The notes under the pieces were generated by a model. The model was not told the origin of the DNA and searched no databases. It was given only the letters and a program-made list of their open reading frames with translations. Made by a program: the position numbers and the translations under genes. A DNA stretch of 64,000 nt from Rahnella aceris (GTDB lineage Bacteria > Pseudomonadota > Gammaproteobacteria > Enterobacterales > Enterobacteriaceae): NCBI RefSeq assembly GCF_011684115.1, contig NZ_JAADJV010000001.1:434001-498000 (forward strand), read 5' to 3'. Every line of letters begins with the position of its first letter. The stretch's first letter is position 1. Positions 11,206 to 62,716 of this stretch are shown here, piece after piece.

Positions 11206-11287
11206 CCTCCCCCTGCGAAGGGGGAGGCGGGGAGGGGGGGGTGCAAACGACTGCGCCCACCCAACCCTCCCCTTTGCAGGGGAGGGA
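11206..11287 (-). repeat. GC-rich dispersed repeat, copy A (short, reversed)
   Basis: Two GC-rich hairpin-forming ends (11206-11227 and about 11256-11287) face each other across a short spacer. They match, in reverse orientation, the ends of the repeats at 16288, 28543 and 33329, but lack the AT-rich middle. It lies 9 bp after the adhesin stop codon and ends about 45 bp before the TolC-like gene, so it is probably within the transcript and could form a strong hairpin there. Confidence 0.8.
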
Positions 11288-11331
11288 GCAGTACCAAAAA
11301 TATAAATCGGCGTAATTAAGTGGTGTCGGTA

Positions 11332-12708
11332 ATGAAAAATAAGAGAGTGATGCGGTCACTGACCGTGATGTTGGGCACCTTGTGCCTGACCGGTTTAACA
11401 GGGAATACGGGGGTGACGGCGGCGGTTAAACAGCCGGAATTTAACTGGCAGGCTGCGCCGACCGAGGAGATGCGTGCCAGCCTGACGTTGCAGGATGCCA
11501 TCCTGCGGGCATTTGCGCGTAATCCGCAAATTTCAGAAGCGGCGGCGCAAATTCGCGTCGGCAAAGGCAACCTTGATGAGGCAAAAAGCGCCTGGTATCC
11601 GCAGATTTCCTTACAGGGAACTGCCGGAAAATCACATCAGACTGACTCGGCAGGTAGCCTGAGTAATAACGCATCGGCGGGCGTCCAGCTCAGCCAGTTG
11701 CTGTATGACTTTGGTCGTACCGGCGGCAGCATCAGTCAGCAGGAATACCTGTCTGATGCCTATCGTTATTCGCTTTACAGCACAATGACTGATGTGGCGC
11801 TCAGTACCCTGCAGGCCTATCTCTCGGTCAAACGCTATCAGGCGCTGAGCCTGGCGGCGCGCGACAATATCGCTTCTCTCGAACGTGTGCGGGACACCGC
11901 CAGACTGCGGGCAGACGCCGGACTGAGTTCACAGTCTGACGTGTTGCAGGCAGAAACGCGTATCGCCGGAATGAGAGCCACCGTTGAGCAATACCGCGCG
12001 CAGCAACGTTCTGCGCAGGCACAACTGACGGTGCTGACCGGCGTGGTGTCCGATAATTTGCCGGATCTGCCGCAAAGCCTGCTGGACCAGAAAGTGACCC
12101 TCGACAAAATCCCTTACGAAAACAGCACGCTGGTGCGTGCCGCGCAGGCTAAACAGCAGGCGGCGATCGAAGAAGTTAATCAGACCGAAGCTCAGCACTG
12201 GCCGACCCTGAAAGTGCAGGCAGGACGTACGCGCTATGAAAACAGCGGCGGTGGCGGTTCTTACTGGGACGATCAGGTACAGCTGGCGGTGGATGCGCCG
12301 GTGTATCAGGGCGGGGCGGTGAGCGCCAAAGTCCGCGCGGCAGAAGGCCAGCGGCAGGCGGCACAGGCCGAAGTCGAAAAAGCCAAGCTGGACATCAACC
12401 AGAAAGCGTCGGCAGCTTATGCCGATATGATCGGCGGTCAGCAGCGGCAACTGGCGGGTGAGGAACAGTTCGGCAGCGCGACGCATACCCGCAGCGTTTA
12501 TCAGGATGAATACAAACTCAGCAAGCGCAGCCTGAACGATTTGCTCAGCGTTGAGCAGGACGTTTTTCAGGCCGATACGTCGCGTATTGGCGCGCTGTAT
12601 GACGGCTGGGATGCGACGGTGCGCTACGCCGCCGCCGTGGACAATCTGGTCGATATGTTAGGCATCGACAGACACAAACAAACAGGTGACACCATCCCGA
12701 TGCTGTAA
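11332..12708 (+). CDS. bapB: TolC-like outer membrane protein of the BapA type I secretion system
   Basis: Outer membrane efflux/TolC family protein of 458 residues from the ATG at 11332, which gives a clean signal peptide (basic MKNKR start, hydrophobic core, Ala-x-Ala region near residue 30). An in-frame GTG at 11320 is possible but adds only four residues. The body has the long alternating Ala/Gln/Glu helices of TolC proteins, including repeated A-Q-A-Q-L-T and S-D-V-L-Q-A-E-T motifs. It should form the outer membrane channel for the adhesin. It lies between the adhesin and the ABC exporter in the same direction. The hairpin repeat before it may lower its expression relative to the adhesin or stabilise the upstream message. 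Confidence 0.9.
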   Translation: MKNKRVMRSLTVMLGTLCLTGLTGNTGVTAAVKQPEFNWQAAPTEEMRASLTLQDAILRAFARNPQISEAAAQIRVGKGNLDEAKSAWYPQISLQGTAGKSHQTDSAGSLSNNASAGVQLSQLLYDFGRTGGSISQQEYLSDAYRYSLYSTMTDVALSTLQAYLSVKRYQALSLAARDNIASLERVRDTARLRADAGLSSQSDVLQAETRIAGMRATVEQYRAQQRSAQAQLTVLTGVVSDNLPDLPQSLLDQKVTLDKIPYENSTLVRAAQAKQQAAIEEVNQTEAQHWPTLKVQAGRTRYENSGGGGSYWDDQVQLAVDAPVYQGGAVSAKVRAAEGQRQAAQAEVEKAKLDINQKASAAYADMIGGQQRQLAGEEQFGSATHTRSVYQDEYKLSKRSLNDLLSVEQDVFQADTSRIGALYDGWDATVRYAAAVDNLVDMLGIDRHKQTGDTIPML

Positions 12709-12758
12709 GGCGCGGACAGGACGGGAATAAACCAGAAGCATTCGATATCGAGGTTGAA

Positions 12759-14936
12759 ATGAGTAATGAAGCAACAACACCTTTGTCGATCGACGTCTGG
12801 ATAAGCGCCATGGGGCGCGTGGCCGAAACATTCGGTAAACCAGCAGATCCGCTTTATCTTCGCCAGCAAATGCGCTGGTTCGAACATCAGCCGTTGCGGC
12901 GTCAGCTCGACCGGCTCAGCGGTCTGATGGGGCTTCAGGTGGGTATGGTCAGCTGGAATCAGGTGCGCTGGCGTCAGGAAGTGTTACCTGCCGTCATTAC
13001 GCTGCAACAGGGTGGCATTGCGGTACTGGAAAATCTGCACGACGACGGCATGGTGGACTACTGGCTGAGCGACGGCGGCAACTTAGTGCGTTCGGCTGAA
13101 CTGGTGGTGTTGCTTGAGCAAAGCACCGGTCCGGTCTTTCTGGTTGGCGTGGCACCGCGCGGGCGCGATCAGCGTATCGACCCGTTCGTTCAGCCGCATA
13201 AAAAACACTGGTTCTGGGATAACTTCCGGGGTTCCGGGCGCAAAATCGCGGAAATCTCGCTGGCCTCTATTCTCGGTAACGTGCTGGCGCTGGCGGGAAT
13301 TTTGTTCTCAATGCAGGTGTATGACCGCGTTATTCCGGCGCAATCTTACCCGACCTTGTGGGTGCTGTTTTTCGGCGTGGTGCTGGCGGCGGGGATGGAA
13401 TATGTCATCCGCCTGATGCGTACGCTGGTGTCGGATCTGATGGGCAAGAAAGTCGATCTGAAAGTCTCCTCGCTGTTTTTCGTGCGGGCGATGAATATCA
13501 AAAACGACGACCGGCCGAAATCCACCGGTTCCTTTATCTCTCAGTTGCGTGAAATCGATCAGGTGCGCGAACTGCTGACCTCGACCACCATCAGCGCGGC
13601 GGCGGATATGCCTTTCGTGTTGCTGTTCCTTGGCATCATGTTTTTCATCGGTGGCCCGCTGGTGATTATCCCGCTGCTGGCGATCCCGCTGATTGTCATT
13701 CCCGGCATTCTGATCCAGTGGCCGATGGCCAAACTGGCGAAAGAAGGTATGCGCGAAAGCGCACTGCGCAACGCCGTGCTGGTGGAAACCATCGAAGGCA
13801 TCGAAGACATCAAAGCCTTGCAGGCGGAAGCCTATTTCCAGCGTCAGTGGGAACAGACGCACGAAGTGAGCGCGGCGGTCGGCATGAAGCAACGCGTGTG
13901 GGGCGCGCGCCTGACAGGCTGGGCCTCCACCGTGCAGCAACTGACTTACGGCGGCATGCTGGTTTTCGGCGTGTATCTGGTGCTCAGCGGCGACATCACC
14001 ACCGGTACGCTGGTCGCCAGCAGCATGTTGTCATCGCGCACCATCGCACCGCTGATGCAACTGACGATGGTGTTTTCCCGCTGGCAGCATGCGAAAAGCG
14101 CCATGCGCGGGCTGGATGAACTGCTGAAAAAACCTGTTGACCGGCCAGCGGATGCGCAGTTGTCACATTGCCCGACGCTCAGCGGTCATTTCAATGTGCG
14201 TAATCTGCAATACACCTACGACAAAGAAAATGCGCCGAATGTGCTCGGTATCGGGCAACTGGAGATCAAGCCGGGCGAACGCGTGGCAATCCTCGGGAAA
14301 GTCGGTGCGGGTAAATCCACATTGCTCAAACTGCTGGCGGGGCAGGCCAGTCCGTCGCAGGGGAAAATTCTCATCGACGGCGTCGACATGACTAAAGTTG
14401 AACCGGCGGATATCCGCCGCCAGCTCGGTTATCTGTCGCAGGATTCGCGGCTGTTTTTCGGCACCTTGCGTCAGAACCTGATGCTGGGTTATCCGCACGC
14501 GACTGACCAGGAAATGCTGCAGGCGTTACGTATCAGTGGCGCGTTGTCGATGGTGCAGGCCGACGCGTCGAGCCTGGATAAAATCATTAACGAAGGCGGG
14601 CGCGGGTTGTCCGGCGGTCAGCGGCAGATGGTGATGCTGAGCCGCATGATCCTGCGTAACCCGCAGGTGGTGCTGATGGACGAACCGACCGCGTCGATGG
14701 ATGAACAACTGGAAGAATACGTCATCCGTCAGTTACATGGCTGGCTGGTGGGGCGGACGCTGATTGTGGTGACGCACCGTCCGGCGCTGCTCAGGCTGGT
14801 GGACAGGATCGTCGTGATGGATAACGGGCGCGTGGTGGCTGACGGACCGCGGGATCAGATCCTCGCCAAAGTAGCCAGCACCACGCCCGCTCCGGCAGCG
14901 GCGGTCATGGACGATAAAAAACAAGGCGCAGCCTGA
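12759..14936 (+). CDS. bapC: Type I secretion ABC transporter (LapB/RtxB-like, BapC)
   Basis: Inner membrane ABC exporter of 725 residues. Residues 1-135 form a C39-like domain without an obvious catalytic Cys-His pair, as in RTX/adhesin exporters that do not cleave a leader. A membrane domain spans about 160-430. The ATPase domain follows, with Walker A (GKVGAGKST), signature LSGGQRQM, Walker B VVLMDEP and the switch His in VVTHRP. It should power export of the adhesin through the adaptor and TolC-like channel encoded on either side. The gap from the preceding stop is 50 bp and the next gene starts 17 bp after this one, so the genes are probably one operon. Confidence 0.93.
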   Translation: MSNEATTPLSIDVWISAMGRVAETFGKPADPLYLRQQMRWFEHQPLRRQLDRLSGLMGLQVGMVSWNQVRWRQEVLPAVITLQQGGIAVLENLHDDGMVDYWLSDGGNLVRSAELVVLLEQSTGPVFLVGVAPRGRDQRIDPFVQPHKKHWFWDNFRGSGRKIAEISLASILGNVLALAGILFSMQVYDRVIPAQSYPTLWVLFFGVVLAAGMEYVIRLMRTLVSDLMGKKVDLKVSSLFFVRAMNIKNDDRPKSTGSFISQLREIDQVRELLTSTTISAAADMPFVLLFLGIMFFIGGPLVIIPLLAIPLIVIPGILIQWPMAKLAKEGMRESALRNAVLVETIEGIEDIKALQAEAYFQRQWEQTHEVSAAVGMKQRVWGARLTGWASTVQQLTYGGMLVFGVYLVLSGDITTGTLVASSMLSSRTIAPLMQLTMVFSRWQHAKSAMRGLDELLKKPVDRPADAQLSHCPTLSGHFNVRNLQYTYDKENAPNVLGIGQLEIKPGERVAILGKVGAGKSTLLKLLAGQASPSQGKILIDGVDMTKVEPADIRRQLGYLSQDSRLFFGTLRQNLMLGYPHATDQEMLQALRISGALSMVQADASSLDKIINEGGRGLSGGQRQMVMLSRMILRNPQVVLMDEPTASMDEQLEEYVIRQLHGWLVGRTLIVVTHRPALLRLVDRIVVMDNGRVVADGPRDQILAKVASTTPAPAAAVMDDKKQGAA

Positions 14937-14953
14937 GCTGCTAAGGACACCGC

Positions 14954-16123
14954 ATGGCACATCTGACATTGCATGATGAACTGGAAGCCGAAAGCCGCAA
15001 AGTCTCGTGGATTATCTGGGGCACGCTGGCCAGTTTGCTGGTGTTTTTTGTCTGGGCACGTTTTGCTGTGCTGGACGAGGTAACGGTCGGTACCGGCAAA
15101 GTGACGCCATCGAGCAAAGCACAGCAAATTGACTCGCTCGATGGTGGCGTAATTTTAAAACTGATGGTGCAGGAAGGATCAGTGGTGAATCGCGGCCAGC
15201 TTCTGGCGCAGCTTGACCCGACACGTTCTCAGTCAAACTATGGCGAGGCCGCCTCCCGTGTGCGGACATTACGTGCTTCTTCTGAACGTCTGAGCGCCGA
15301 ACTGACCGGCGCACCGCTGAAATTCAGCCCCGAAACCATGAAATCACCGGAACTGGTGGCGCGTGAACGCCAGTTATATTTATCACGTAAGCAGAACCGT
15401 GATGAAACGGTGACTAACCTGCAACAGTCGCTCAGACTGGTTAACGATGAAATCAACATGACGCAACCCCTGGTGGCCAAAGGCGCGGCAGGGCAGGTCG
15501 AAGTCATTCGCCTCAAACGTCAGGCCAGCGAACTGCGCGGAAAAATCGACGATGCCACTAACCAGTACGCGGTACGTGCGCGTGAAGAGCAGGTGAAAAA
15601 TAACGCCGATCTGGACGCTGAATTGCAGGTGTTGGCCGGTAAAGAAGATCAGGTGACGCGCTCTGAGCTGTATTCGCCGGTTCACGGCATTGTTAAAGAC
15701 ATTCAGGTTTCCACTGTCGGCGGTGTTCTGCAACCGGGTGGCAAGCTGATGGAAATCGTGCCGATTGAAGATCAGCTGCTGATCGAAACCCGCATTAACC
15801 CGCGCGACATCGCCTATATCCGCCCCGGACTGCCTGCCACGGTAAAAATCTCGGCGTACGATTCATCAATCTATGGCGATCTGGACGGTAAAGTTGAAGG
15901 TGTCTCACCGGATACGTTGCAGGATGAAGTGAAGCGCGACCAGTATTATTACCGTGTGTATGTTCGCACCGACAAAGCTTTCCTGACCAACAAAGCCGGG
16001 CGCCAGTTCCCGATCGTGCCGGGGATGGTGGCGAATGTGGATATCAAAACCGGTCAGAAAAGCGTGCTGGATTATCTGATTAAACCGTTGAATAAGGTGA
16101 AAGAATCCCTGAGGGAGAGGTAA
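14954..16123 (+). CDS. bapD: HlyD-family membrane fusion protein (BapD)
   Basis: Periplasmic adaptor of 389 residues. A single transmembrane helix at about residues 17-37 is followed by a split biotinyl-lipoyl region, a coiled-coil hairpin (about 90-220, rich in Arg/Gln/Glu/Leu) and a C-terminal beta-barrel with the HlyD motif around P-G-M-V-A-N-V. It links the ABC exporter to the outer membrane channel. It starts 17 bp after bapC with AGGAC upstream and is the last gene of the operon. No strong U-tract terminator follows; instead the transcript runs into a repeat-rich gap. Confidence 0.93.
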   Translation: MAHLTLHDELEAESRKVSWIIWGTLASLLVFFVWARFAVLDEVTVGTGKVTPSSKAQQIDSLDGGVILKLMVQEGSVVNRGQLLAQLDPTRSQSNYGEAASRVRTLRASSERLSAELTGAPLKFSPETMKSPELVARERQLYLSRKQNRDETVTNLQQSLRLVNDEINMTQPLVAKGAAGQVEVIRLKRQASELRGKIDDATNQYAVRAREEQVKNNADLDAELQVLAGKEDQVTRSELYSPVHGIVKDIQVSTVGGVLQPGGKLMEIVPIEDQLLIETRINPRDIAYIRPGLPATVKISAYDSSIYGDLDGKVEGVSPDTLQDEVKRDQYYYRVYVRTDKAFLTNKAGRQFPIVPGMVANVDIKTGQKSVLDYLIKPLNKVKESLRER

Positions 16124-16164
16124 GCAGGAGGGCGCTGCTGCTGAGGCTTTAAAGTCAACACCTT

Positions 16165-16665
16165 GGGCTCGCCGCCCAAACTGGCCCAGAGGACGCGTAA
16201 GCGCGCGCCCTCTGGACTCCGGCGCTTTTTTAACTGCGCGCTCTGCTCGCTGACTATGTTTCAGCTGCCGCAGTGATAGCCATAAAGCTCCCTCCCCTGC
16301 GAAGGGGAGGGTTGGGGTGGGGTATTAAAGAAAAATCAGAGAGTTAAAGTAAGCTTTGACTAAGTGTTAGCCCGTAAACCCCCTCCCAACCTCCCCCTTC
16401 GCAGGGGGAGGAGGAAAGATAAAACATTCTGTCGTTGAATTTAAGATCGTGCGGGCGATTCAGAAATCTTGCTGAACGGAGCGGCTTCGAGACCTGTGGC
16501 TCGAAGACCGAGAGAAGGAACCGCGCAGCGGCAAGATTTCCAGCCTGTCTCTGCGGCAACTGAAACATAGCCAGCACGCGATAGCGCTTGTTGAAAAGCG
16601 AAGGGAGATCCAAGAGGGAAAAAGCACTTTTCCCTCTTGGTCGGTTTCGGCGCGAAAGGCTCTGC
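16165..16665. repeat. Large imperfect inverted repeat with hairpins at both ends
   Basis: Two arms of about 100 bp face each other. The best-matched part is 16249-16273 against 16551-16575 (23 of 25 bases complementary). Outside it the arms stay similar, each carrying a hairpin: 16186-16215 (CCAGAGG stem) on the left and 16610-16640 (CCAAGAGGGAAAA stem) on the right. The central part contains the 128-bp GC-rich repeat. The whole could fold into a cruciform or long RNA stem. It fills the gap between the converging bapD and Sel1-like genes. No transposase gene is present. Confidence 0.7.
16288..16415 (+). repeat. GC-rich dispersed repeat, copy B (about 128 bp)
   Basis: A left end with CCCTCCCCTGCGAAGGGGAG followed by GGTTGGGGTGGGGTATTAA, an AT-rich middle containing GTTAAAGTAAGCTTTGAC and GTTAGCCCGTAAA, and a right end with CCTCCCCCTTCGCAGGGGGA. 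The ends are inverted copies of each other and each forms its own hairpin. The same layout appears at 28543 and 33329. It resembles REP/BIME or MITE-like non-coding repeats; no coding sequence is present. Confidence 0.85.
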
Positions 16666-16678
16666 GATAACAGTTATT

Positions 16679-16758
16679 GAGAAACCGAAATATTCCCGAT
16701 CAAGCCTCCACGGCGAGTGAGAAACCGAAATATTCCCGATTAAGCCTTCACGGCCAGT
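16679..16758. repeat. Two direct 40-bp tandem repeats
   Basis: The unit starting GAGAAACCGAAATATTCCCG at 16679-16718 is repeated at 16719-16758 with four substitutions. It lies just outside the right arm of the large inverted repeat and ends 21 bp from the stop codon of the Sel1-like gene. No function is evident. Confidence 0.85.
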
Positions 16759-16779
16759 GAAAACCCAAAATTTGCACCT

Positions 16780-18789
16780 TTATAAAAGGTGTTTAAGCCG
16801 CGATTGCAGCGGCTCCTGCAATCTAAACCCGGCGATAGGATCTTCAATCTCAGTCTTGCGCTTATCCTGCCAAAGATTCATCCTCGCCCGCAGCGAGCCG
16901 CTGAGTTCATCGTGAACCTGCTTCGCAGCCTCGGATTCCGGGTTCAGCTCAAGCACGAATTCCATAAATTTATCCGCGATATAACGGTTTTTCTTCACGC
17001 CGGTACCGGTCAGCCAGGCCATGCCAAGGGTATAAGCGGCTTCGGCGCGATCCGGGTGTGCGGCGTTATGCAGAATTTCCGGCAGCCAGACTTCTGCTGC
17101 CTGACGTTTCTCGGCATCTGAGCCATTATCCAGCGCGCAACTGGCGCGATAGTAGGCGGCGGACAGGTGCCCGGCGTCTATCGCACGCTGATACCACTGC
17201 ATCGCCTGTTCATAATCCGGTTCGCCGCTCAGCCCGTCGCGCAGCGCGTTAGCGCAGGTAAACATAGCCGGAACCATGCCAGAGCGGGCGGCGCTGAGCA
17301 CACAATCCATCGCATTACTGTCATTGTGATAATGCTCAGGCACATCATGGTGCCAGCCGTTGCGGTAGAAGAAATACAGCTCGTAGCAGTGAATGGCACT
17401 GCCGTGGCGCGCCATGCCGGTCATCAGAAAATGAGCGGCATCGATGTCGTCATTGATTGCCATATCATGCGCCAGCGTGACCAGATCGCTGACCGGTTGT
17501 TCATCCCCCGATTGCTGGATAAGCGACCATGCGTGTTCCATCAGCCCTTCACTTAACTCTGGCCGGGCTGGCAGTCCGTACAATCCGAATTGCAGCGCCG
17601 TCGCGGCAAACGCGACCAGCACCGGATCATTGGCCTGGCTCAGGCCGCGGGTCAGTAACTGAGTGAGTACCGGCAAACCTTCTTCATGACCGTTTGCCAG
17701 CACGGCGCGGGAAATAAACATGCGGGCAGAATGGCCCGGCATCGCCTGCGGTGAAACGGCGAACAATGCGTCATAAACGGTCAGGCCGGCCTGATCATCA
17801 TCCTGCCAGTAAGCGGTACAAATCCCGGCGAGATCCAGCAGGCGGACGCGGGTTTCAGGCGTGAGGGGCTGAGCCAGTAAAGTCGCCAAACGCTGCTGGA
17901 GTTCCTGCGCCCGCGGTGATTCCCGTTCTGCAATATCGCCGGATAGCGCATCGCACAGCGCGTTCGCACGAAACTGGTTACGTTCTTCATCGCTGAATTC
18001 CGCACACAGCGGGCTGTCGATAATCAGCATCTGTTGCTCGTCGCTGCCGCCCCAGAACGCGGAATGGAATAACAGGTAGGATTCCATCGTGCCGACGTCG
18101 GCGTGACGCACGGACATCGCCATGCGCAGCCAGTAATCCAGCGCTTCTTCACCGGTTTTTCGGGTTTGCTGTAACGCGGCAGGTAACATTTGCGGCCAGT
18201 GTGTGGCAGGTTCGAACCCGAGGGCGTGGATATGCGCCACCCCGGCTTGCCAGATTTCACTGTCCTGAATCGAAAACTTCTCATGCAGGGGCTTGGGGAT
18301 TTCGCCAGCGAAAAGAGATTTCAGCCAGTAAGGCTCACCGAAACCCCCGCTGAGATTCATCAGATGGCGGAACGCATGAGTCGGGCGCGGGTGTAATTCG
18401 ATGGCGCGTAAAAACGCCAGCACGGCGTAATCGCAACACAACTGGGCACCGAGCCACTGGTGATCTTCAATTTCATTTTCGCCCTGAGACTGGCGGATCA
18501 ACCAGGCATTTTCATGCCAGACCATGCCCAGCAATACGTGAGCGTGGTAGCTCTGCGGGCATTGCTGCGCCCAGTCACTGAGAACTTCCAGCGGATTAAG
18601 TGCAGGCGATTCCGTACCGGTAAACAGAGTGGCCGGATGCATCAGCAGGCCGTAATCGCTTTGGCCTTCGCCCTGATTCTGCCAGCCACGCATCAGTGAC
18701 AACAGCCACTCGTCGAGTTTTAGAAAACGGCGGGCTGCCAGAAGCATTCTGGCTTTGGATATGTTGTCTAGCTGATCCTGTTGTGGCAT
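16780..18789 (-). CDS. Sel1/TPR-like repeat protein, function unknown
   Basis: A 669-residue cytoplasmic-looking protein without a signal peptide. I start it at the ATG at 18789, which has AGGGAA upstream and begins MPQQDQLDN; the longer frame to 18933 adds an Arg-rich, unlikely N-terminus. The N-terminal half has Trp-rich helical segments resembling DUF4034-type proteins, and the C-terminal third has Sel1-like repeats (A-M-Q-W-Y-Q-R-A-I-D-A-G-H around residue 535 and a G-T-G-V-K-K-N-R-Y motif later). Such repeats usually mediate protein-protein contacts. It is a single gene converging on bapD; there is no neighbour that fixes its role. The DUF4034 assignment is from memory of the family and should be taken as tentative. 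Confidence 0.7.
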   Translation of the reverse strand: MPQQDQLDNISKARMLLAARRFLKLDEWLLSLMRGWQNQGEGQSDYGLLMHPATLFTGTESPALNPLEVLSDWAQQCPQSYHAHVLLGMVWHENAWLIRQSQGENEIEDHQWLGAQLCCDYAVLAFLRAIELHPRPTHAFRHLMNLSGGFGEPYWLKSLFAGEIPKPLHEKFSIQDSEIWQAGVAHIHALGFEPATHWPQMLPAALQQTRKTGEEALDYWLRMAMSVRHADVGTMESYLLFHSAFWGGSDEQQMLIIDSPLCAEFSDEERNQFRANALCDALSGDIAERESPRAQELQQRLATLLAQPLTPETRVRLLDLAGICTAYWQDDDQAGLTVYDALFAVSPQAMPGHSARMFISRAVLANGHEEGLPVLTQLLTRGLSQANDPVLVAFAATALQFGLYGLPARPELSEGLMEHAWSLIQQSGDEQPVSDLVTLAHDMAINDDIDAAHFLMTGMARHGSAIHCYELYFFYRNGWHHDVPEHYHNDSNAMDCVLSAARSGMVPAMFTCANALRDGLSGEPDYEQAMQWYQRAIDAGHLSAAYYRASCALDNGSDAEKRQAAEVWLPEILHNAAHPDRAEAAYTLGMAWLTGTGVKKNRYIADKFMEFVLELNPESEAAKQVHDELSGSLRARMNLWQDKRKTEIEDPIAGFRLQEPLQSRLKHLL

Positions 18790-19111
18790 GAGGTTCCCTG
18801 AACGGTTGAATAAAGAAGCTGTTGCGTGGCACCGCAGTTTATCGGTCTTCCCGGCGGTGATCAGCGGGATTGGTCTGACTTTGGCTATAGTAACGGATCT
18901 GAAGTGTCGCTGACCAACAAAGCCTCTCCACAATATCGATTAATAATTTTCCGAAAATACCTTATTAATTTAATGGATTAGATATCGAATATTAAGAAAA
19001 TCGAAATTCAAAAGATGGAGATAATGTGAAGTAATTATGGAGAAATACAGTCAACGGGCGCGATATAATCAATGATGAATATCACAGAGTGATATTATAT
19101 CTTTGTAAATC
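18790..19111. other. AT-rich gap with a perfect palindrome
   Basis: No gene is apparent. The stretch should carry the promoter of the Sel1-like gene on the minus strand. A perfect inverted repeat, AATATCAC-AGA-GTGATATT, lies at 19078-19096, a possible regulator site. It is 289 bp before that gene start and 16 bp beyond the micF U-tract, so its target is unclear. Confidence 0.5.
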
Positions 19112-19196
19112 AAAAAAAAACCGGCCACAAAGGGCCGGCTGTTGTTTCCACAAAACGGGGAATGAGGGTAATTGAATAACAAATAATGATGATAGC
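19112..19196 (-). ncRNA. micF: MicF antisense small RNA
   Basis: On the minus strand the sequence begins GCTATCATCATTA, identical to the first 13 bases of E. coli MicF as I recall it, and continues with ATTACCCTCATTC, one base different from the E. coli pairing region. It ends in a strong GC hairpin (AGCCGGCCC/GGCCGG) and nine T residues at 19112-19120, a Rho-independent terminator. The length is about 85 nt against 93 in E. coli. A good minus 10 box (TATACT, 19204-19209 on the minus strand) lies 7 nt before the predicted 5' end. It is divergent from the porin gene at 19564, the E. coli micF-ompC arrangement. MicF pairs with the ompF message at its ribosome binding site and represses it. Confidence 0.9.
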
Positions 19197-19563
19197 GAGA
19201 GAGAGTATATATTATTGCTGAATGTATGATTTATCACTTAGTGCGGTAACGGGTTTAATTAATTAATTGATATATATCATTTTTTTATTAAATTAGCTTT
19301 GCGTGCTTTATTTTAACAAAAATAAACAGACGTAAATTTACGCAAAATTAATATATTGTTACATATTCTAATATATACGTAATGTCTTCACTAATTTCGT
19401 ATCATTTTCTTTCTGGATTAAAAGAATCTATATCATGAGAATGGAACTGCCATGTCGGGCCAACATTTATACAGATACAAAAAACGTTATGCAGATTTAA
19501 AGCGGTAAAAAAACTGTACTTTACATTTAGTGGCACGGTCCGACACCTATCGAGGACAAAAAA
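19197..19563 (+). promoter_or_regulatory. Divergent micF-porin control region
   Basis: This 367-bp AT-rich stretch carries the micF promoter on the minus strand and the porin promoter on the plus strand. In related bacteria phosphorylated OmpR activates both from shared sites; motifs such as GTTACATATT (near 19360) and TTTACATTTAG (near 19520) are plausible OmpR half sites but were only judged by eye. The porin has GAGGAC 8 bp before its ATG. The long leader is consistent with small RNA control of the porin. Confidence 0.6.
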
Positions 19564-28537: not shown

Positions 28538-28542
28538 TCGCA

Positions 28543-28669
28543 CCCTCCCCTGCGAAGGGGAGGGTTGGGGTGGGGTATTAAAGCAAAATCAAGATGTTGA
28601 AGTGTGCTTTAGAAAAGGGTATTAGCCCTTAAAACCCCCACCCAACCTCCCCCTTCGCAGGGGGAGGAG
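28543..28669 (+). repeat. GC-rich dispersed repeat, copy C
   Basis: Same layout and orientation as copy B: a CCCTCCCCTGCGAAGGGGAG left end, a TATTAAAGCAAAATCAAG middle with GTGCTTT and TTAGCCCTTAAA, and a CCTCCCCCTTCGCAGGGGGA right end. It starts 6 bp after the yejK stop codon. Confidence 0.87.
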
Positions 28670-33252: not shown

Positions 33253-33328
33253 CTTGTCTCCCTGGCGGGGGAGGTGCAAAGTCCGATTGATCTGCTGGTT
33301 TTACAGACGTAGAAGCAGGGTTCGGTCT

Positions 33329-33458
33329 GCTCCCTCCCCTGCGAAGGGGAGGGCTGGGGTGGGGTATTAAGGTCAAAATCAAAAAGGTAAAGTGTGCTTT
33401 GACAAGATGTTAGCCCTTAAAACCCCCTCCCAACCTCCCCCTTCGCAGGGGAAGGAGC
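33329..33458 (+). repeat. GC-rich dispersed repeat, copy D
   Basis: Same orientation and layout as copies B and C: CTCCCTCCCCTGCGAAGGGG, GGTATTAAGGTCAAAATC, GTGCTTTGACAAGATGTTAG and CCTCCCCCTTCGCAGGGGAA. It lies between the converging bcr and MFS permease genes, at the left border of the sugar-acid cluster. Confidence 0.87.
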
Positions 33459-54348: not shown

Positions 54349-54365
54349 AGCTTCAGTTGCCGGGC

Positions 54366-55835
54366 TTAACCTACGTATTTTGCCACGGTTTTCTTCGCGC
54401 CAATTCTTTGCAGATCGGCATACGCGCTCAGTATGGCCGCTACGACTTTCTCTTCATGAGGCAATTGCTCACCGAATACGCCCGTCAGGGCCAGCAGGGC
54501 TTTCACCCGCTGTTCGCCATCTTCGGTTGATGCCACAATTTTAGCGACGGTTTCAGCCATCGGATCTTTAATCTCAATGGACTGCCCGGCATCATCAGTA
54601 CCACCGACATAACGCATCCAGCCTGCCACGCCCAGCGCCAGTAATTCATAGGAACCACCATTTTTAACATGCCAGCGGATGGAATCGAGCATACGTTGTG
54701 GCAGTTTCTGGGTGCCGTCCATCGCGATTTGCCAGGTTCGGTGTTTCAGCGCCGGGTTGCTGTAACGTGCAATCAGGCTGTCAGCATACGCACCGAGATC
54801 GACACCCTCGACGCTCAGCGTCGGAGCTTGTTCATGCAGCATCAGATGATGGGCAGCGGCCTTATAGTTGGCATCTTCCATGCAATCGTTGATGTGCTGA
54901 TAACCGGCCAGATAGCCGAGATAGGCGAGGAAAGAGTGGCTGCCGTTCAGCATGCGCAGCTTCATCTGTTCGAAAGGCAAAACGTCGGCAACCATCTGTG
55001 CGCCAGCTTTTTCCCAGTCCGGACGGCCCGCCACGAAATGGTCTTCCACGACCCACTGAATGAAGGGTTCACAGGCGATACCGCAAGGATCGGTCACACC
55101 TCCGAGGGCTTCGGTGATTTCTTCCAGCGTATTTTCCGTCGCGGCAGGAACAATACGGTCAACCATGGTGCTTGGGAAAGAGACGTTTCCGGCGATCCAT
55201 TCAGCCAGTTCTGCGGAACGTGCTTTCGCCATGCCCAGTACGGCGTTTTTTACCACCAGACCGTTTTCAGGAATGTTATCGCAGCATAAAACGGTGAAGC
55301 CTGGTAAGCCGCGCTCATGACGTAAACGCAGGGCTTCGACTAAAACGCCCGGAGCGGTACCCGGCGCCTGACCGCCCGCCAGATCCTGCTGAATTTTTGG
55401 ATTTTGCAGATCCAGTTCGCCGGTGCCCGGCTCAATGCAATAACCTTTTTCAGTGATGGTCAGGGAAACAATCGCGATCTGTGGCTCAGTGAGTTTTTCA
55501 AGTACTGCTTCCAGCCCGTCAATCCCGCCGTGCACAGATTCATGTGCAGAGCCGATGATAATCGCCTGATTGCCGTCCGCGCCTTTTTCCAGCACGGTAA
55601 ACAGATGATTTTGCTGACGCAAACTCTGGATCAGCGTTTCATTGCCGAACAGGCTAATTTCGCAAATGCCCCAGTCGCCCCCCTGGAGGTTCAGCACGCG
55701 GTTGGTCAGTAGCGCCTGGTGAGCGCGATGGAAGGCACCAAATCCGAGATGAACAATACGGCTTTTTAACACATCGCGATCATAAGCAGGCAATGACACT
55801 GCTGCAGGCAGGGACGCTGTGGCAATAGTTTTCAT
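54366..55835 (-). CDS. yeiQ: Mannitol dehydrogenase-family oxidoreductase YeiQ (UxuB-like)
   Basis: A 489-residue polyol/uronate dehydrogenase. N-terminal R-I-V-H-L-G-F-G-A-F-H-R-A-H-Q-A carries the NAD site, and M-V-D-R-I-V-P-A-A-T and K-L-R-M-L-N-G-S-H-S the substrate and catalytic Lys regions. It follows E. coli YeiQ (488) closely, for example G-G-D-W-G-I-C-E-I-S-L-F, more than UxuB. The expected activity is D-fructuronate/D-mannonate interconversion or a related one; YeiQ itself is not well characterised. It lies between yeiP and yeiR as in E. coli. Confidence 0.93.
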   Translation of the reverse strand: MKTIATASLPAAVSLPAYDRDVLKSRIVHLGFGAFHRAHQALLTNRVLNLQGGDWGICEISLFGNETLIQSLRQQNHLFTVLEKGADGNQAIIIGSAHESVHGGIDGLEAVLEKLTEPQIAIVSLTITEKGYCIEPGTGELDLQNPKIQQDLAGGQAPGTAPGVLVEALRLRHERGLPGFTVLCCDNIPENGLVVKNAVLGMAKARSAELAEWIAGNVSFPSTMVDRIVPAATENTLEEITEALGGVTDPCGIACEPFIQWVVEDHFVAGRPDWEKAGAQMVADVLPFEQMKLRMLNGSHSFLAYLGYLAGYQHINDCMEDANYKAAAHHLMLHEQAPTLSVEGVDLGAYADSLIARYSNPALKHRTWQIAMDGTQKLPQRMLDSIRWHVKNGGSYELLALGVAGWMRYVGGTDDAGQSIEIKDPMAETVAKIVASTEDGEQRVKALLALTGVFGEQLPHEEKVVAAILSAYADLQRIGAKKTVAKYVG

Positions 55836-55864
55836 GCAATACTCCAGGCAAGTCAGAAATAAAT

Positions 55865-55882
55865 AATTGGTCAGGCCAAATT
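55865..55882 (-). promoter_or_regulatory. UxuR/ExuR-type operator before yeiQ
   Basis: AATTGGT-CAG-GCCAAATT, an imperfect palindrome close to the known UxuR/ExuR site AAATTGGTATACCAATTT. It lies 30-47 bp before the yeiQ start codon. The UxuR-like gene converging on yeiQ is the natural candidate to bind it. Confidence 0.65.
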
Positions 55883-56056
55883 GGGGCTATTTACCCGTCA
55901 GTTGAATTTTATGCTGGATAAAGCGACGATTTAAGCCGAAATCAGGGCTTAGAGTGTAAAGTCATATGATAGAAAGGGGAATTGGTAAGTCCAGATAGCC
56001 ACTCATTTTGTGATGCAGATCCACAGTCTGAAGGATTAATCGCAAAATGCAGACAA

Positions 56057-56084
56057 TAAAAAAGGAACGCCGCAGCGTTCCTTT
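56057..56084 (-). terminator. Terminator after yeiP
   Basis: Stem AAAGGAACGC/GCGTTCCTTT with CGCA loop, followed on the minus strand by TTTTTTATT. Confidence 0.9.
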
Positions 56085-56105
56085 CAGCAGAGAGCGGGGC
56101 GCTGA

Positions 56106-56678
56106 TTAATCCGCGCGCCCCATATAACGACGTTCTGCGATATGAATACGGATTTTGTCGCCAGAACTCAGATATTCAGGAACCTGAATGTTCAGACCGG
56201 TGCTCATGACCGCAGGTTTGGTGCGGGAACTGGCGGAAGCGCCTTTGATGCCCGGTGCCGTTTCCACGATTTCCAGATCCACCGTCTGCGGCATTTCAAG
56301 CGCCAGCAGCTGGCTGTCCAGCGTCAGAACCTGCATGCCCTGCAAACCTTCTTCAGGGATGAACTGCAGTTCGTCTTCAATCTGCGCCTTATTAAAGGTG
56401 TAGGGCGTGAAGTCTTCGTCATCCATAAAGATGTATTCGTCACCATCAACGTAAGAGAAGTTCACTTTACGACGGGTCAGGGTAACGGTATCCAGGATAT
56501 CGTCGCCTTTGAAGCGCTCTTCCACTTTGCCACCAGTACGAACGTCAGCAAAACGCATTTTGTACAAGGTGCTGGCACCACGGGCGCTCGGGCTCTGAAC
56601 ATCAATATCTTTTACCAGCAGCAATTTGCCGTCGTAGTTCACAACGAAGCCGCGTTTAATTTCGTTAGCACGTGCCAT
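56106..56678 (-). CDS. yeiP: Elongation factor P-like protein YeiP
   Basis: A 190-residue, three-domain EF-P paralog, the same length as E. coli YeiP. The loop that carries the modified Lys in EF-P reads S-P-S-A-R-G-A-S-T here, so an Arg takes the tip position. EfpL/YeiP relieves ribosome stalling at difficult peptide sequences. The C-terminal half has the EF-P signature G-D-K-I-R-I-H near residue 175. Single gene ended by a terminator. Confidence 0.95.
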
Positions 56679-56922
56679 ATAAATAACCTGTCAGGAGAGA
56701 GATAAATAATTTGCGACACGTTACCCGCGCCGCTGATTTCAGGCAAGCAGATAGCGTAAAAAGAGTCGCGAAAATCCGCTTTATGACGCATATTTTGCGC
56801 TTCGCCTGCCGGTATGAAAAATGTTCGGGTTATCGTGTTAAAGAGTCGTAAATATTTCGCTGGTGGCGCATTACGCTGCCTGCTATTGTCGCGGCTCAAA
56901 ATGAGGCCTGAGGAGGCTGTTG

Positions 56923-57177
56923 ATGGACTGTCGTACTGATTGCGGAGCCTGTTGCATAGCGCCTTCAATTTCCAGCCCGATCCCGGGAATGCCAGACGGT
57001 AAGCCTGCCAATACGCGCTGTGTTCAGCTGGCTGATAACTTTCTGTGTAAGATTTTCACCTCACCACTGCGTCCGAAAGTTTGCGCCAGCCTGCAGGCCA
57101 GCCGCGAAATGTGCTTTACACATCGCGACCAGGCGCTGACTTATCTGATTCAGCTTGAGGCAGATACCGCGCCTTAA
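56923..57177 (+). CDS. yeiW: YkgJ-family cysteine cluster protein YeiW
   Basis: An 84-residue protein, the length of E. coli YeiW, starting [11 protein letters not shown] with AGGAGG 6 bp before the ATG at 56923. Seven Cys, including C-G-A-C-C and C-K-I-F, suggest a zinc or iron-sulfur site. Function unknown. Its stop codon overlaps the stop of setB on the other strand by 4 bp, so the two genes interlock at their 3' ends. Confidence 0.93.
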
Positions 57178-58388
57178 ACCACCGCTGCGGGCACGTCTTC
57201 CGCCGGTTTATCGACGTTTTTCACATTCCAGATACATAACACCGAACCAATCACCATCGCCAGTGCGGCATAAAATACCGCATGGTATGTCCAGAACTGG
57301 GCGATCACCCCGGCCAGCGAACCGGCCAGGATCCAGCCCGCCCGCGTTGAATTGGTAAATAACGTGGTGGCCGCGCCTGCCTGACCCGGCATCAGATCCT
57401 GGAAATACAGCATGCCGATCCCGGCCAGAATGCCGATGAAAATTGCGTTCAGCAACTGTAAAGCAATCAGCATTGCCGCACCGGTAGTAAACAGAATGCC
57501 GCCGTAGAAAATCACCCCCGCCAGCACAGCGAAACGCATCAGGAAGCGTTTCCCCAACTGTTTAGCCAGATATCCGGCGATCAGCATGGTCGGAATTTCC
57601 AGACAGGCTGCACTGCCCATCAGTACCCCTGCCAGTTTTTCCGGCAGACCCAGTTCACGCACCACATACAGCGGCATATTGATCAGATAAATGCTGTTTG
57701 CTGCCCACATCAGTGAACAGGCGATGAACAGCATCAGCGTATCACGGCGGTTACGGCGTGGTGCTTCCAGCGTGGCGGTGGTCTTGATGTGCGCCTTGGG
57801 CATCGAAGGCAGGAACATCCACACCATTACGCCGCACAGCAAGAAAGCCAGCGTGGCAGCGCAGTACATAAAGGTAAAACCAAAGCCCATCGACAGGGCA
57901 AAGGCCAGCGGCGGTCCGACGACCCATGCCAGCGAAACCTGTGCGCGCAAAATGGAGCTGAACATCACGGCTTCGCGACCAGTTTTTTCGGAATGCTCCC
58001 GTGCTAACGCGAACATCTGCGGGTTAGCTGTGGAACCAAAGCTCGACAGCAAAACGCCGATGAACAGCAGGATAAAGTAATTACGGTTAAAGGCGAAAAG
58101 CACACAAGCCAGCGCACCCAGAATGCAGCAATACAAAATCAGCGTTTTGCGGTCACCGCGTTGATCAGACCAGGTCGCCAGCAACTGGCTGACGAAGATG
58201 CCAATCACGGCACTGCCGGTAAAGAAGATACCCACCATAAACGGGCTGACGTGAACCTGAGAAGTGAGGAACAGGCTGAGCGTCGGGGTCTGTAACGCGC
58301 CTGCAATGCCGGTAAGGAAGGCGATGATCAGAAAAGCAGTTGACGTCATGTCGGGTAAACGGCGGGCTGACGTTGTAGAAATTCGCAT
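57174..58388 (-). CDS. setB: Sugar efflux transporter SetB
   Basis: A 404-residue, 12-helix MFS protein; the first helix begins [19 protein letters not shown] as in E. coli SetB (393), with the same 14-residue leader, so I keep the start at 58388. G-D-R-K-T motif between helices 2 and 3. SetB exports lactose/glucose-type sugars and in E. coli has been linked to chromosome segregation. It is divergent from fruBKA across 463 bp and overlaps yeiW tail to tail. Confidence 0.94.
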
Positions 58389-58750
58389 TAGCTAAGTGAA
58401 CCAGAAGTAGAGGAGGGGACGAAATTTGCGCGAATGTTACGACAGTTTAAAAAAAACAAAAACAGGTTTTGATCATCAAAAATGTAAACCACAGTGAATT
58501 TGCCATACTGAATAATAAAACCGCACTTTGTGTCAAAAATGACCGGGTGAGGCGTCGCTTCTTCACCGCAATATTGTCCGCAGAGAAGGGGACAGCTTGC
58601 GTCAGCATTTTTCGTCAGCCTGACTTCAGCATTTGCGTTAAGTTATCCGTTTCGGAAAGCTCTCAGAAAGGAAACTGTGCGTAACATCAAAAAATCGTTA
58701 CGCAAAATCAGGGAAAGCTTGATTTAAATACAGGCCGGATTGAGACTTCT

Positions 58751-58762
58751 TGAAACGTTTCA
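58751..58762 (+). promoter_or_regulatory. Cra (FruR) operator 1
   Basis: TGAAACGTTTCA, a perfect 12-bp palindrome matching the strong Cra consensus, 90 bp before the fruB start. Confidence 0.9.
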
Positions 58763-58815
58763 GCGTTGTCGGTTTTTCTTCTGAAATCTGATGACGCTCC
58801 TTTTTTCTCAGTAAA

Positions 58816-58829
58816 GCTGAAACGATTCA
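58816..58829 (+). promoter_or_regulatory. Cra (FruR) operator 2
   Basis: GCTGAAACGATTCA, one mismatch from the Cra core, 23 bp before the fruB start and 65 bp after operator 1. E. coli fruB also has two Cra sites. It is part of a larger inverted repeat (GCTGAAA ... TTTCAGC, 58816-58837). Confidence 0.85.
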
Positions 58830-58851
58830 ATTTCAGCAGGAGAGGAGAATT

Positions 58852-59982
58852 ATGTTCCAACTGTCACAGCAAGATATTCATCTCGGTGCGGCTGCCAGCG
58901 ATAAGCAGGACGCTATTCGCCAGGTTGCAGCAGCACTGACTCAGGCCGGTCGCGTCAGCGCAGGTTATGTAGACGGCATGCTGGCGCGTGAGTTGCAAAC
59001 CTCTACTTACCTTGGCAACGGCATCGCAATCCCGCATGGCACCACAGATACCCGTGATCTGGTGCTTGATACCGGTGTGCAGGTTTTCCAGTTTCCGCAA
59101 GGGATTACCTGGGGCGAAGGCCAGACGGCATATGTCGTGATCGGCATCGCAGCTCGTTCTGATGAACACCTCGGTTTGCTGCGTCAGCTGACGCACGTCT
59201 TAAGTGACGACAGCGTGGCTGATCGCCTGGCAAAAACAGATTCCGCTGAAGAATTACGCACCCTGCTGATGGGCGAAAAAAATACGGCTGAATTCCTGTT
59301 TGATAGCCAGTTGATCGCAGTCGATGTGGCCGCAGAAAACCTGATCACGTTACAGGCGCTGAACGCTGGCCGCCTGAAAGAGATTGGCGCTGTCGATACC
59401 GCTTTTGTCAGTGATGTGATCAGCCGTAAACCGCTGAACCTCGGGCAGGGCATCTGGCTGAGCGACAGTACCGAAGGCAACCTGAAAAGTGCTGCAACGG
59501 TAAGCCGTGCACAGCAGGCATTTGATCTGGATGGCGAAAAAGTCTCCATGCTGCTGACGATTTCCGTTGCTGACGATCAGCCGCTCGATGTGCTGAACTA
59601 CCTCAGTGATTTGCTGATTGCCAACAAAGCTGAACGCTTGCTGACGGCAGATTCCGTCGGTGTGCTGGCATTGCTGACCAGCGAAGTCGAAGAACAAGCC
59701 AACGTGCTGACCGCTGAATACGTTATCCGTAACGAACACGGCTTGCACGCCCGTCCGGGTACCGCACTGGTGAACGTTATTAAACAGTTCAGCAGCGAAA
59801 TCACGGTAACGAATCTTGATGGCAGCGGTAAACCTGCCAACGGCCGCAGCCTGATGAAAGTCGTGGCGCTGGGCGTGAAAAAAGGTCACCACCTGCGTTT
59901 TACCGCGAGTGGTGAGGATGCAGAGCTGGCATTAAAAACCATCGGTGAAGCGATTGCTGAAGGTCTTGGGGAGGGCGCATGA
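58852..59982 (+). CDS. fruB: Fructose PTS diphosphoryl transfer protein FruB (EIIA-FPr)
   Basis: A 376-residue cytoplasmic fusion. EIIA-Fru domain at the N-terminus (phosphorylated His62 in I-P-H-G-T), a central linker domain (about 150-280), and a C-terminal HPr-like FPr domain with His299 in G-L-H-A-R-P. It passes phosphate from EI to FruA. AGGAGAGGAG lies before the ATG. First gene of fruBKA; its stop overlaps the fruK start by 4 bp. Confidence 0.96.
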
Positions 59983-60914
59983 GCCGTCGGGTCGCCACTA
60001 TTACCTTAAACCCGGCCTATGATCTGGTCGGATACTGCCCCGAAATCGAACGGGGTGAAGTCAACCTGGTACAAACCACCGGCCTGCACGCGGCAGGTAA
60101 AGGGATTAACGTTGCCAAAGTGCTGAAAGATCTCGGCATCGATGTCACCGTTGGCGGTTTCCTCGGTAAAGAAAATCAGGATGGCTTCCAGCTGTTATTC
60201 AGCGATCTGGGTATTGCGAACCGCTTCCAGGTGGTTAATGGCCGCACCCGTATCAATGTCAAACTGACTGAAAAAGATGGTGAAGTCAGTGATTTCAATT
60301 TCTCCGGCTTCAACGTCACGCCTGCTGACTGGGAACGTTTCGTAACGGATTCCCTGTCATGGCTGGGCCAGTTCGACATGGTTGCCGTCAGCGGCAGTCT
60401 GCCAGCGGGTGTTGATCCTGACGCTTTCACCGACTGGATGAAACGTCTGCGCGCACAGTGCCCGTGCATCATCTTCGACAGCAGCCGTGAAGCGCTGGTT
60501 GCCGGTCTGAAAGCCGCGCCCTGGCTGGTGAAACCTAACCGCCGTGAACTGGAAATCTGGGCTGGCCGTAAATTGCCGGAACTGAGCGACGTGGTAGAAG
60601 CCGCGCATGCCTTACGTGATCAGGGGATCGCCCATGTGGTGATTTCTCTGGGTGCTGAAGGTGCATTGTGGGTTAACGCCTCCGGTGCGTGGATCGCCAA
60701 ACCGCCAGCCTGTGAAGTCGTCAGCACCGTGGGTGCAGGTGATTCCATGGTCGGTGGTCTGATCTACGGTTTGCTGATGCGTGAATCCAGTGAACATACG
60801 CTACGACTGGCCACTGCTGTTGCTGCCCTGGCTGTCAGCCAGAGTAATGTCGGTGTCACCGATCGTCCGCAACTCGCGGCGATGATGGCCCGTGTTGATC
60901 TGAAACCCTTTTAA
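59979..60914 (+). CDS. fruK: 1-phosphofructokinase
   Basis: A 311-residue PfkB-family kinase with G-K-G-I-N-V-A near residue 40 and the C-terminal signature G-A-G-D-S-M-V-G-G with catalytic Asp255. It converts fructose 1-phosphate to fructose 1,6-bisphosphate with ATP; its substrate is also the inducer for Cra. Translationally coupled to fruB by ATGA overlap; fruA follows 15 bp later with CAGGAG before it. Confidence 0.96.
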
Positions 60915-60929
60915 TCCGCAGGAGTCAGA

Positions 60930-62630
60930 ATGAAAATGCTGCTGATGATAGACAGTTCGCTGGGACAGGCTCGCAGCCAACTGGCAAAAAATTTGCTCGC
61001 TGCTGCTGCGGCGAAAGCAGGCCACTCGTTGACCGAACAGGCCGCTGACGCTGATGTAGTGATTGTGGCCGGTGAAACCGTGCCAAACGAACCTGCGCTG
61101 GCTGGCAAAAATATTTATACCGGTAATGTGGCTGATGCAGTCCGTGATCCGGAGGCTTTCCTGCAACGCGCTGTGGCTGAAGCTAAACCTTATGTCGCAC
61201 CTGTTGCGGCAGCCGTTGCCGCTCCGGCAGCCAGCGGCCCGAAACGTATCGTCGCCATCACTGCCTGCCCGACCGGTGTTGCACACACCTTTATGGCTGC
61301 AGAAGCGATTGAAACTGAAGCCAAAAAACGTGGCTGGTGGGTAAAAGTTGAAACCCGCGGTTCTGTAGGTGCAGGCAATGCTATTACACCGGAAGAAGTT
61401 GCAGCGGCCGATCTGGTGATTGTCGCGGCTGACATCGAAGTGGATCTGGCGAAGTTTGCCGGTAAGCCGATGTACCGCACGTCTACCGGTCTGGCACTGA
61501 AAAAGACCAAACAGGAACTGGACAAAGCGCTGGTTGAAGCTGAGGTGTTTGAGCCGAAATCTCAGGGCGCAGCGACGGGCACCAGGAAGAAAGAAGCGGG
61601 CGGCGCAGGCCCATACCGTCACCTGCTGACCGGCGTGTCTTACATGCTGCCAATGGTGGTTGCGGGTGGTCTGTGTATCGCACTGTCATTTGTCTTCGGT
61701 ATCAAAGCCTTTGAAGTGAAAGGCACGCTGGCGGCGGCATTGATGCAAATCGGTGGCGCTTCAGCCTTCGCGCTGATGGTGCCGGTTCTGGCCGGTTTCA
61801 TTGCCTTCTCTATCGCTGACCGTCCGGGCCTGACGCCGGGTCTTATCGGCGGCATGCTGGCTGTCAGCACCGGTGCTGGTTTCCTCGGTGGTATCATCGC
61901 AGGTTTCCTGGCGGGTTATGTGGCGAAAGCCATCAGCGGCAAGCTGAAATTACCGCAAAGTATGGAAGCGCTGAAACCTATCCTGATTATTCCGCTGGTG
62001 GCGAGTCTGATTACCGGTCTGGTGATGATTTACGTGGTCGGTACGCCGGTTGCTAAAATCATGGCGGGTCTGACTGCCTGGCTGCAATCTTTGGGTACAG
62101 CCAATGCGGTACTGCTCGGCGCAATTCTCGGTGCGATGATGTGTACCGACATGGGTGGCCCGGTGAACAAAGCTGCTTACGCGTTCGGTGTGGCACTGCT
62201 GAGTTCTTCCGTCTACGCACCAATGGCCGCCATCATGGCTGCCGGTATGGTGCCACCTCTGGCGATGGGGCTGGCGACATTGCTGGCGCGTCATAAGTTC
62301 GAGCAAAGCGAACGTGAAGGCGGTAAAGCGGCGCTGGTATTGGGCTTGTGCTTTATCTCTGAAGGTGCGATTCCGTTTGCGGCCCGTGACCCGATGCGTG
62401 TTCTGCCATGCTGTATCGCAGGTGGTGCACTGACCGGTGCGCTGTCGATGGCATTCCACGCACAACTGATGGCACCACACGGCGGTCTGTTCGTACTGCT
62501 GATCCCTGGTGCAATCACGCCGGTTCTCGGTTATCTGGTGGCGATTATCGCCGGTACGGTTCTGGCGGGTGGCGCATACGCGATTCTGAAACGTTCAGAT
62601 GCTGCGGTAGCCGCGAAAGCTGCTGCATAA
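60930..62630 (+). CDS. fruA: Fructose PTS permease EIIB'BC
   Basis: A 566-residue membrane protein. A degenerate IIB' domain (1-90), an Ala/Pro-rich linker, a IIB domain with phospho-Cys113 in T-A-C-P-T-G-V-A-H-T, then the IIC membrane domain from about residue 230 with roughly eight to ten helices. It brings in fructose and phosphorylates it to fructose 1-phosphate. Last gene of fruBKA, ended by a strong terminator. Confidence 0.96.
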   Translation: MKMLLMIDSSLGQARSQLAKNLLAAAAAKAGHSLTEQAADADVVIVAGETVPNEPALAGKNIYTGNVADAVRDPEAFLQRAVAEAKPYVAPVAAAVAAPAASGPKRIVAITACPTGVAHTFMAAEAIETEAKKRGWWVKVETRGSVGAGNAITPEEVAAADLVIVAADIEVDLAKFAGKPMYRTSTGLALKKTKQELDKALVEAEVFEPKSQGAATGTRKKEAGGAGPYRHLLTGVSYMLPMVVAGGLCIALSFVFGIKAFEVKGTLAAALMQIGGASAFALMVPVLAGFIAFSIADRPGLTPGLIGGMLAVSTGAGFLGGIIAGFLAGYVAKAISGKLKLPQSMEALKPILIIPLVASLITGLVMIYVVGTPVAKIMAGLTAWLQSLGTANAVLLGAILGAMMCTDMGGPVNKAAYAFGVALLSSSVYAPMAAIMAAGMVPPLAMGLATLLARHKFEQSEREGGKAALVLGLCFISEGAIPFAARDPMRVLPCCIAGGALTGALSMAFHAQLMAPHGGLFVLLIPGAITPVLGYLVAIIAGTVLAGGAYAILKRSDAAVAAKAAA

Positions 62631-62650
62631 CAGTAAATCGTTAAAAAACA

Positions 62651-62684
62651 AAAAGGCGCGACATGTGAATGTCGCGCCTTTTTT
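62651..62684. terminator. Terminator after fruA
   Basis: A perfect 14-bp stem AAAAGGCGCGACAT/ATGTCGCGCCTTTT with a GTGA loop and further T residues, 20 bp after the fruA stop; usable in both directions. Confidence 0.93.
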
Positions 62685-62687
62685 ATT

Positions 62688-62716
62688 GCGCCTTCCCTTC
62701 GCAGGGGAGGGCGCCG
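62688..62716 (-). repeat. GC-rich dispersed repeat, half copy E
   Basis: GCGCCTTCCCTTCGCAGGGG followed by AGGGCGC resembles one hairpin end of the 128-bp repeat. It lies between the converging fruA and nfo genes. No second end is present. Confidence 0.55.

Follow-up and report, generated by a model that had tools for sequence, protein, structure and literature searches.

The 64,000-nucleotide window analysed here (contig 1, positions 434001 to 498000, of the 5.23-Mb genome of Rahnella aceris, G000) holds five copies, A to E, of a GC-rich repeat with inverted, hairpin-forming ends (Table 1). An initial annotation had described B, C and D as equally directed copies of about 128 bp sharing two hairpin ends, A as reversed and short, E as a half copy, and B to E as lying between converging genes. 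These descriptions hold: B, C and D measure 126-129 bp each and have their direction and both hairpin ends in common; A is indeed reversed and short, yet retains both hairpins; E amounts to one imperfect hairpin; and gene calls by our own script place B, C, D and E in convergent gaps and A in a codirectional one.

A search with the hairpin 14-mer at up to 2 mismatches gave 16 matches in the window against 0.57 expected (both strands, near-palindromes being counted twice), and a strict pyrimidine-purine hairpin scan found 8, all within A-D, with none in any of 20 Markov sequences. When folded, B forms a single long hairpin (DNA z -6.1, RNA z -7.9), and the tail following its left hairpin is, judging by its letters, capable of forming a triplex or a G-quadruplex. 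No window match reached the gathering threshold in Rfam.

Table 1. Copies and hairpins of the repeat in the window, in window coordinates.
Feature	Position	Strand	Description
Copy A	11205..11288	-	Reversed doublet, both hairpins, very short core; gap between two codirectional genes
Copy B	16288..16413	+	Full doublet; convergent gap
B left hairpin	16290..16311	+	CCCTCCCC-TGCGAA-GGGGAGGG, then TTG GGGTGGGG
B right hairpin	16390..16411	+	CCTCCCCC-TTCGCA-GGGGGAGG; C-rich tail before it
Copy C	28541..28669	+	Full doublet; convergent gap; start 3 nt past the upstream stop
Lone hairpin immediately left of D	33257..33276 (approx.)	+	Identified by reading
Copy D	33330..33457	+	Full doublet; convergent gap
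Copy E	62690..62712	no strand	One imperfect hairpin, after a distinct T-tailed hairpin; convergent gap

A dispersed family with nearly invariant ends

The repeat is not unique to the window loci but dispersed genome-wide. Scoring 40 of 107 candidates gave 41 places at ≥100 bits across the genome, and BLAST applied to 59 stretches around matches plus the window returned 73 places. Of these, 51 are near full length, one of which merges into a tandem neighbour. This catalogue is a lower bound, as a left-end match at C4:326427 lies outside the stretches examined; copy E and stretches L091, L113, L117, L121 and L129, which carry weaker hairpins, gave no BLAST match and so fall outside the counts. 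Near-full copies of the element, which is about 126 bp long, measure 99-102, 108, 115 or 122-135 bp, with cores of about 29-65 nt.

The ends are nearly invariant, including the hairpin loops (TGCGAA on the left, TTCGCA on the right), and the left end equals the consensus in 30 of the 51 copies. Among these paralogs, with gaps counted, the distance from the consensus per column is 2.1% for the left end, 4.4% for the right end and 30.0% for the core. With two conserved ends inverted around a variable spacer, the element has the architecture of a REPIN or bacterial interspersed mosaic element (BIME). Beyond the hairpins a weak consensus, computed on 50 of the 51 copies, extends for about 12 nt on each side and is strongest at -1, -3, -4 and +1 to +4. 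Copy B (contig 1:450288) and the copy at contig 1:1734218 lie beside different genes with cores 93% identical and form a recent pair.

Placement directly after genes

Gene context was classified with our own gene caller at 63 merged sites, drawn solely from stretches chosen by matches: 33 sites were convergent, 29 codirectional and 0 divergent, with 1 at a stretch edge. On a circular chromosome the numbers of convergent and divergent gaps must be roughly equal, so the 33:0 ratio is far from chance (p = 2e-10). Finding no divergent site among 62 has a probability of 1e-15 when gaps are weighted by intergenic length, of which 43% is divergent in these stretches, and of 2e-6 when gaps are counted, the background gaps being neighbours of the sites and not a random sample. 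Among codirectional sites, 28/29 lie closer to the stop codon upstream, at a median of 12 nt, than to the start codon downstream, at a median of 134 nt. Since a stop codon is no more than 50 nt away at 57/62 sites, the placement rule is directly after a gene, and placement directly 3' of genes is well supported. The excess in convergent gaps anticipated by the initial annotation was thus recovered (33 vs 0 of the 62 scored), but its description of the repeat as a mark of convergent junctions is too narrow, given the 29 codirectional sites. A terminator scan at C gave 3 minus-strand matches vs 0.7 expected, including the left hairpin when read in the leftward direction, and the same scan found no terminator-like site around B and D.

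Orientation follows the replication fork

In four genomes (G000, G012, G010 and G003) we located dnaA and a putative dif, the latter by its sequence pattern. Based on the left-end 25-mer, chromosomal copies pointed with the fork in 28/38 cases on G000 contig 1, 38/48 in G012, 20/25 in G010 and 42/66 in G003, counts that exclude 20/58 copies in G000 (on other contigs), 1/49 in G012 and 5/71 in G003. Agreement with the fork was 75/96 for copies with a perfect left-end 25-mer and 53/81 for the others (p = 0.07). Gene direction as the cause of this orientation was considered and rejected: gene direction cannot act as a confounder in convergent gaps, and in those of G000 contig 1 17/23 copies agree with the fork; in the codirectional gaps of that contig, element direction is unrelated to gene direction (5:8 v 8:8). 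In the same assay, all nine chromosomal IS200-like genes of G012 point with the fork (9/9). That genome has ten Y1-transposase matches, nine of them on contig 1. In G003, four matches to the left end, spaced by about 258 bp and sharing one orientation (contig 1, 3768690-3769488), likely form a tandem array of the element.

Distribution across genomes

A search with the 126-mer, in which at most 8 candidates per genome were scored, found matches in 14/14 Rahnella genomes, our own counted (G013 only a partial one of 52 bases), in 0/45 genomes of other genera of the same family, and in 2/39 genomes of the same order, where single ends match. The 126-mer had no match among 20,395 E. coli records. 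Of the 98 stretches in named genomes that contain the exact left-end 33-mer, 89 are from Rahnella, 7 from Enterobacterales bacterium AwEntero, 1 from Aeromonas and 1 from Alcanivorax; 8 of the 9 non-Rahnella stretches were inspected by reading. Among plasmids, 17 records match, 11 of them from Rahnella, which account for all the long matches; in six Moraxella, Aeromonas and Shewanella records the match is limited to 36-39 nt of an end. No description of this Rahnella family was recognised in the literature searched.

Orthologous loci in relatives

Loci C and D were each scored in 12 of the 13 relatives, G010 being missing at C (where the 126-mer search finds a partial copy) and G011 at D. The 24 relative-by-locus comparisons comprise 6 full doublets, 11 single hairpins (some diverged in sequence), 1 degenerate hairpin, 1 degenerate doublet, 1 hairpin interrupted by an insertion sequence (IS), 2 cases of another repeat and 2 of nothing. 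Further readable loci show the same kinds of state, including same-core doublets and single hairpins. A different core occupies the same site in G012 at 276523 and, for part of it, at 2242830, and in G011 at C; G004 has the core of 142779 inverted in situ; and hairpins are missing from 2242830 in G005 and G013 and from 1072052 in G007. The comparison of empty sites proposed with the initial annotation yielded one clean case, locus C in G002, which lacks a target duplication; loci 450288 (B), 48219 and 1734218 were dropped from this reading as their flanks are non-syntenic or lie within another repeat.

Thirteen orthologous pairs with the same core, drawn from six loci, differ at 35/936 columns in the ends and at 37/735 in the cores (p=0.22), which does not support locus-by-locus purifying selection on the ends. 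Because ends and cores change at similar rates at orthologous loci, slow change at fixed loci does not explain why ends are so similar among paralogs. This suggests that the ends are renewed by spread or conversion, and not kept alike by local selection alone.

In G012 (contig 1, about 1459058-1460475; L250, L264) an IS with HTH (helix-turn-helix) and rve domains, IS3-like by reading, lies inside the hairpin loop of the counterpart of copy D. Similar IS end sequences are found in or beside the hairpins of G012 at both 2480856 and 1087620, and of G002 at 2480856. These insertions resemble the insertion sequences targeting REPs (repetitive extragenic palindromes) described by Tobes and Pareja (PMC1525189). 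Some relatives (L256, L258, L295, L297) have, at loci C and 2480856, a different repeat in place of our genome's element; it shows CCGTCATACTTC or AAGTATGACGG at one end.

Search for a mobiliser

The initial annotation had raised mobilisation by a REP-associated tyrosine transposase (RAYT), which our search does not support. The PF01797 profile has no match in G000. Across the genus it gave 16 matches in 4/14 Rahnella genomes, with zero in G000, G003 and G004, which are rich in the element, and no hairpin at any of the 8 of 16 loci examined (L277-L284). We take the Y1 genes of G012 to be IS200-like and the gene of G001, beside a TnpB-like gene, to be IS605-like; by reading, the remaining matches are a broken gene, fragments or copies of the IS200-like gene. 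As a mobiliser in the genome or the genus, a RAYT was therefore set aside, none being found with PF01797, the one family searched.

Relation to known repeats

The initial annotation did not recognise the family by name; its ends place it with the boxC/PIT/TM kind, boxC being known from E. coli since the 1990s and the boxC/PIT/TM_ECO triplex motif being treated by Holder et al. in 2015 (PMC4666352). The Rahnella end, CCCTCCCC TGCGAA GGGGAGGG TTG GGGTGGGG, has 8 mirrored positions and by reading fits the boxC/TM layout of a C-block, a loop, a purine block, a 3-nt loop and a mirrored purine block. Common to both are a hairpin with a second purine block, whose sequence would allow folding as an intrastrand triplex, intergenic location and inverted pairs, as well as partial loss that leaves stem-loops. 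By the Table 1 coordinates of PMC4666352, the E. coli pairs have their tails inward in 4/5 cases and span 85-129 bp, near the Rahnella range. Triplex formation in vitro is reported there for E. coli oligonucleotides, and the sections consulted offer no means by which boxC spreads. The Rahnella ends differ, by reading, from the literal TM_ECO consensus CCCTCNCCC...GGGNGAGGG N3 GGGNGAGGG, their loop is nearly fixed, and 51 near-full doublets were catalogued, where MG1655 has 23 motifs with 5 pairs among them.

We found all 23 published E. coli motifs within about 1 base of their published coordinates in NC_000913.3. Classified by hand, their 18 sites comprise 7 convergent, 9 codirectional and 2 divergent ones, with 8/9 codirectional sites nearer the upstream stop. 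Gene-end placement is thus common to E. coli boxC and the Rahnella element; the E. coli count is our own and is absent from the excerpted part of PMC4666352.

Comparison with REP and BIME, proposed at the outset, is apt for architecture and placement. The element shares with REPINs two inverted conserved ends, a variable spacer and single units interpreted as remnants (PMC3116915), and with REPs a position near 3' ends (PMC3733652). It differs from REPINs in that its hairpin lacks GT[AG]G at the 5' foot, GTGG standing instead in the left tail, 3' of the hairpin; in that no RAYT is flanked by the repeat; and in that its ends are related to boxC, not to REP. CGTC-tagged REPs are likewise mostly paired REP-like palindromes near 3' ends with no dedicated transposase known, according to PMC3733652, but by reading no CGTC tail is seen at the Rahnella hairpins, which carry G-rich tails instead. 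TnpA proteins use the lagging-strand template, according to Quentin et al. (PMC6006769). On its sequence, we conclude that the Rahnella family is of the boxC/PIT/TM kind, arranged as a REPIN-like doublet.

Neighbouring features in the window

The remainder of B's gap (16415-16780) is a second dispersed repeat family, parts of which are 77-89% identical in three other stretches of the same genome (L102, L120, L134), with matches in at least 9 of the 13 relatives. Window positions 259-16123 hold an open reading frame of 3645 codons followed by three codirectional genes, candidates, perhaps, for a large adhesin and its secretion genes if the gene name in the initial annotation is followed.

Origin of the family

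We consider it probable that the family is a non-autonomous mobile element, a REPIN-like doublet of inverted boxC-type hairpins that spreads at replication forks and is tolerated at the 3' ends of genes. The initial annotation had left the choice between a transcript-end role and a non-autonomous mobile element; the similar change of ends and cores at orthologous loci favours mobility over selection on each copy. Mobility of the element within Rahnella is supported, and we infer a fork-coupled, single-strand route of spread, as fork-following orientation and near-identical ends together point to it. Under this model, copies would spread via single-stranded DNA at the replication fork, with the two hairpins serving as recognised ends. 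The moving activity would not come from an extant RAYT and may have been lost. Surviving copies would lie mainly right after stop codons, where genes and promoters are left unbroken, deletion between the two palindromes would produce single hairpins, and an influence on the 3' ends of mRNAs, if there is one, would be a secondary matter.

Several observations weigh against this reading. The pool of the four genomes (128/177 copies co-oriented with the fork) is non-independent, as orthologous copies are held in common, the bias in G003 is weak (p=0.025), and on G000 contig 1 the bias is weaker when taken from the BLAST catalogue of whole elements (29/43, p=0.034) than from the left-end count. 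The 13 ortholog pairs all contain G000 and therefore overlap, and because a shared core and the presence of both ends were required in choosing them, the set is biased towards conserved ends. The empty site at locus C in G002, the sole clean case, could also have arisen by deletion. Finally, no mobiliser was found, PF01797 being the sole transposase family searched for.

Among the alternatives, a host function in the 3' untranslated region, each copy being selected as an mRNA 3' stabiliser, a transcript-end barrier or a bidirectional terminator, seems to us unlikely. It would account for the closeness to stop codons, for codirectional sites keeping to the upstream gene, for the very stable RNA hairpin and for the hairpin of different sequence that, by reading, G006, G007 and G011 carry in the same place at locus 2480856. 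The leftward terminator-like hairpin of C agrees with it as well, but the surroundings of B and D offer no such site, and E. coli PIT elements are reported in PMC4666352 to be without promoter or terminator activity. Also against it, the ends are not clearly more conserved than the cores at orthologous loci, and locus states vary between species.

More doubtful is a history in which ancestral single hairpins at gene ends were fixed addresses, with cores and inner half-ends entering or being exchanged by recombination or targeted insertion. The preponderance of single hairpins over full doublets at loci C and D, the exchanged cores at 276523, at part of 2242830 and at C, and the inversion at 142779 are in keeping with such a history. 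However, deletion between palindromic ends would yield identical single hairpins; PMC4666352 describes products of this kind from TM pairs in E. coli, and Quentin et al. (PMC6006769) propose them for REP dimers, in which a central deletion could give a 'double foot' REP. Locus C in G011 has a different outer flank too and is possibly a separate insertion. In a bolder reading, to which we likewise give little credence, these repeats would be RAYT-free and fork-coupled, their triplex hairpins acting as fixed gene-end addresses at which interchangeable cores are written, swapped or inverted by replication or repair enzymes, with no dedicated transposase.

An ordinary miniature inverted-repeat transposable element, mobilised by a DDE transposase that duplicates its target, is very improbable: the element is short, non-coding and dispersed with inverted ends, but its ends are hairpins, its orientation tracks the fork, and a target duplication is absent from the clean empty site and was not seen in flanks by eye, with no formal test.

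The mobile, REPIN-like boxC-type doublet thus remains the reading that we favour. A large doublet family of this type in several Rahnella species makes it possible to trace, at individual loci, how copies are gained, lost or inverted and how cores are exchanged, and, as no RAYT was found, what moves such repeats becomes a testable question.

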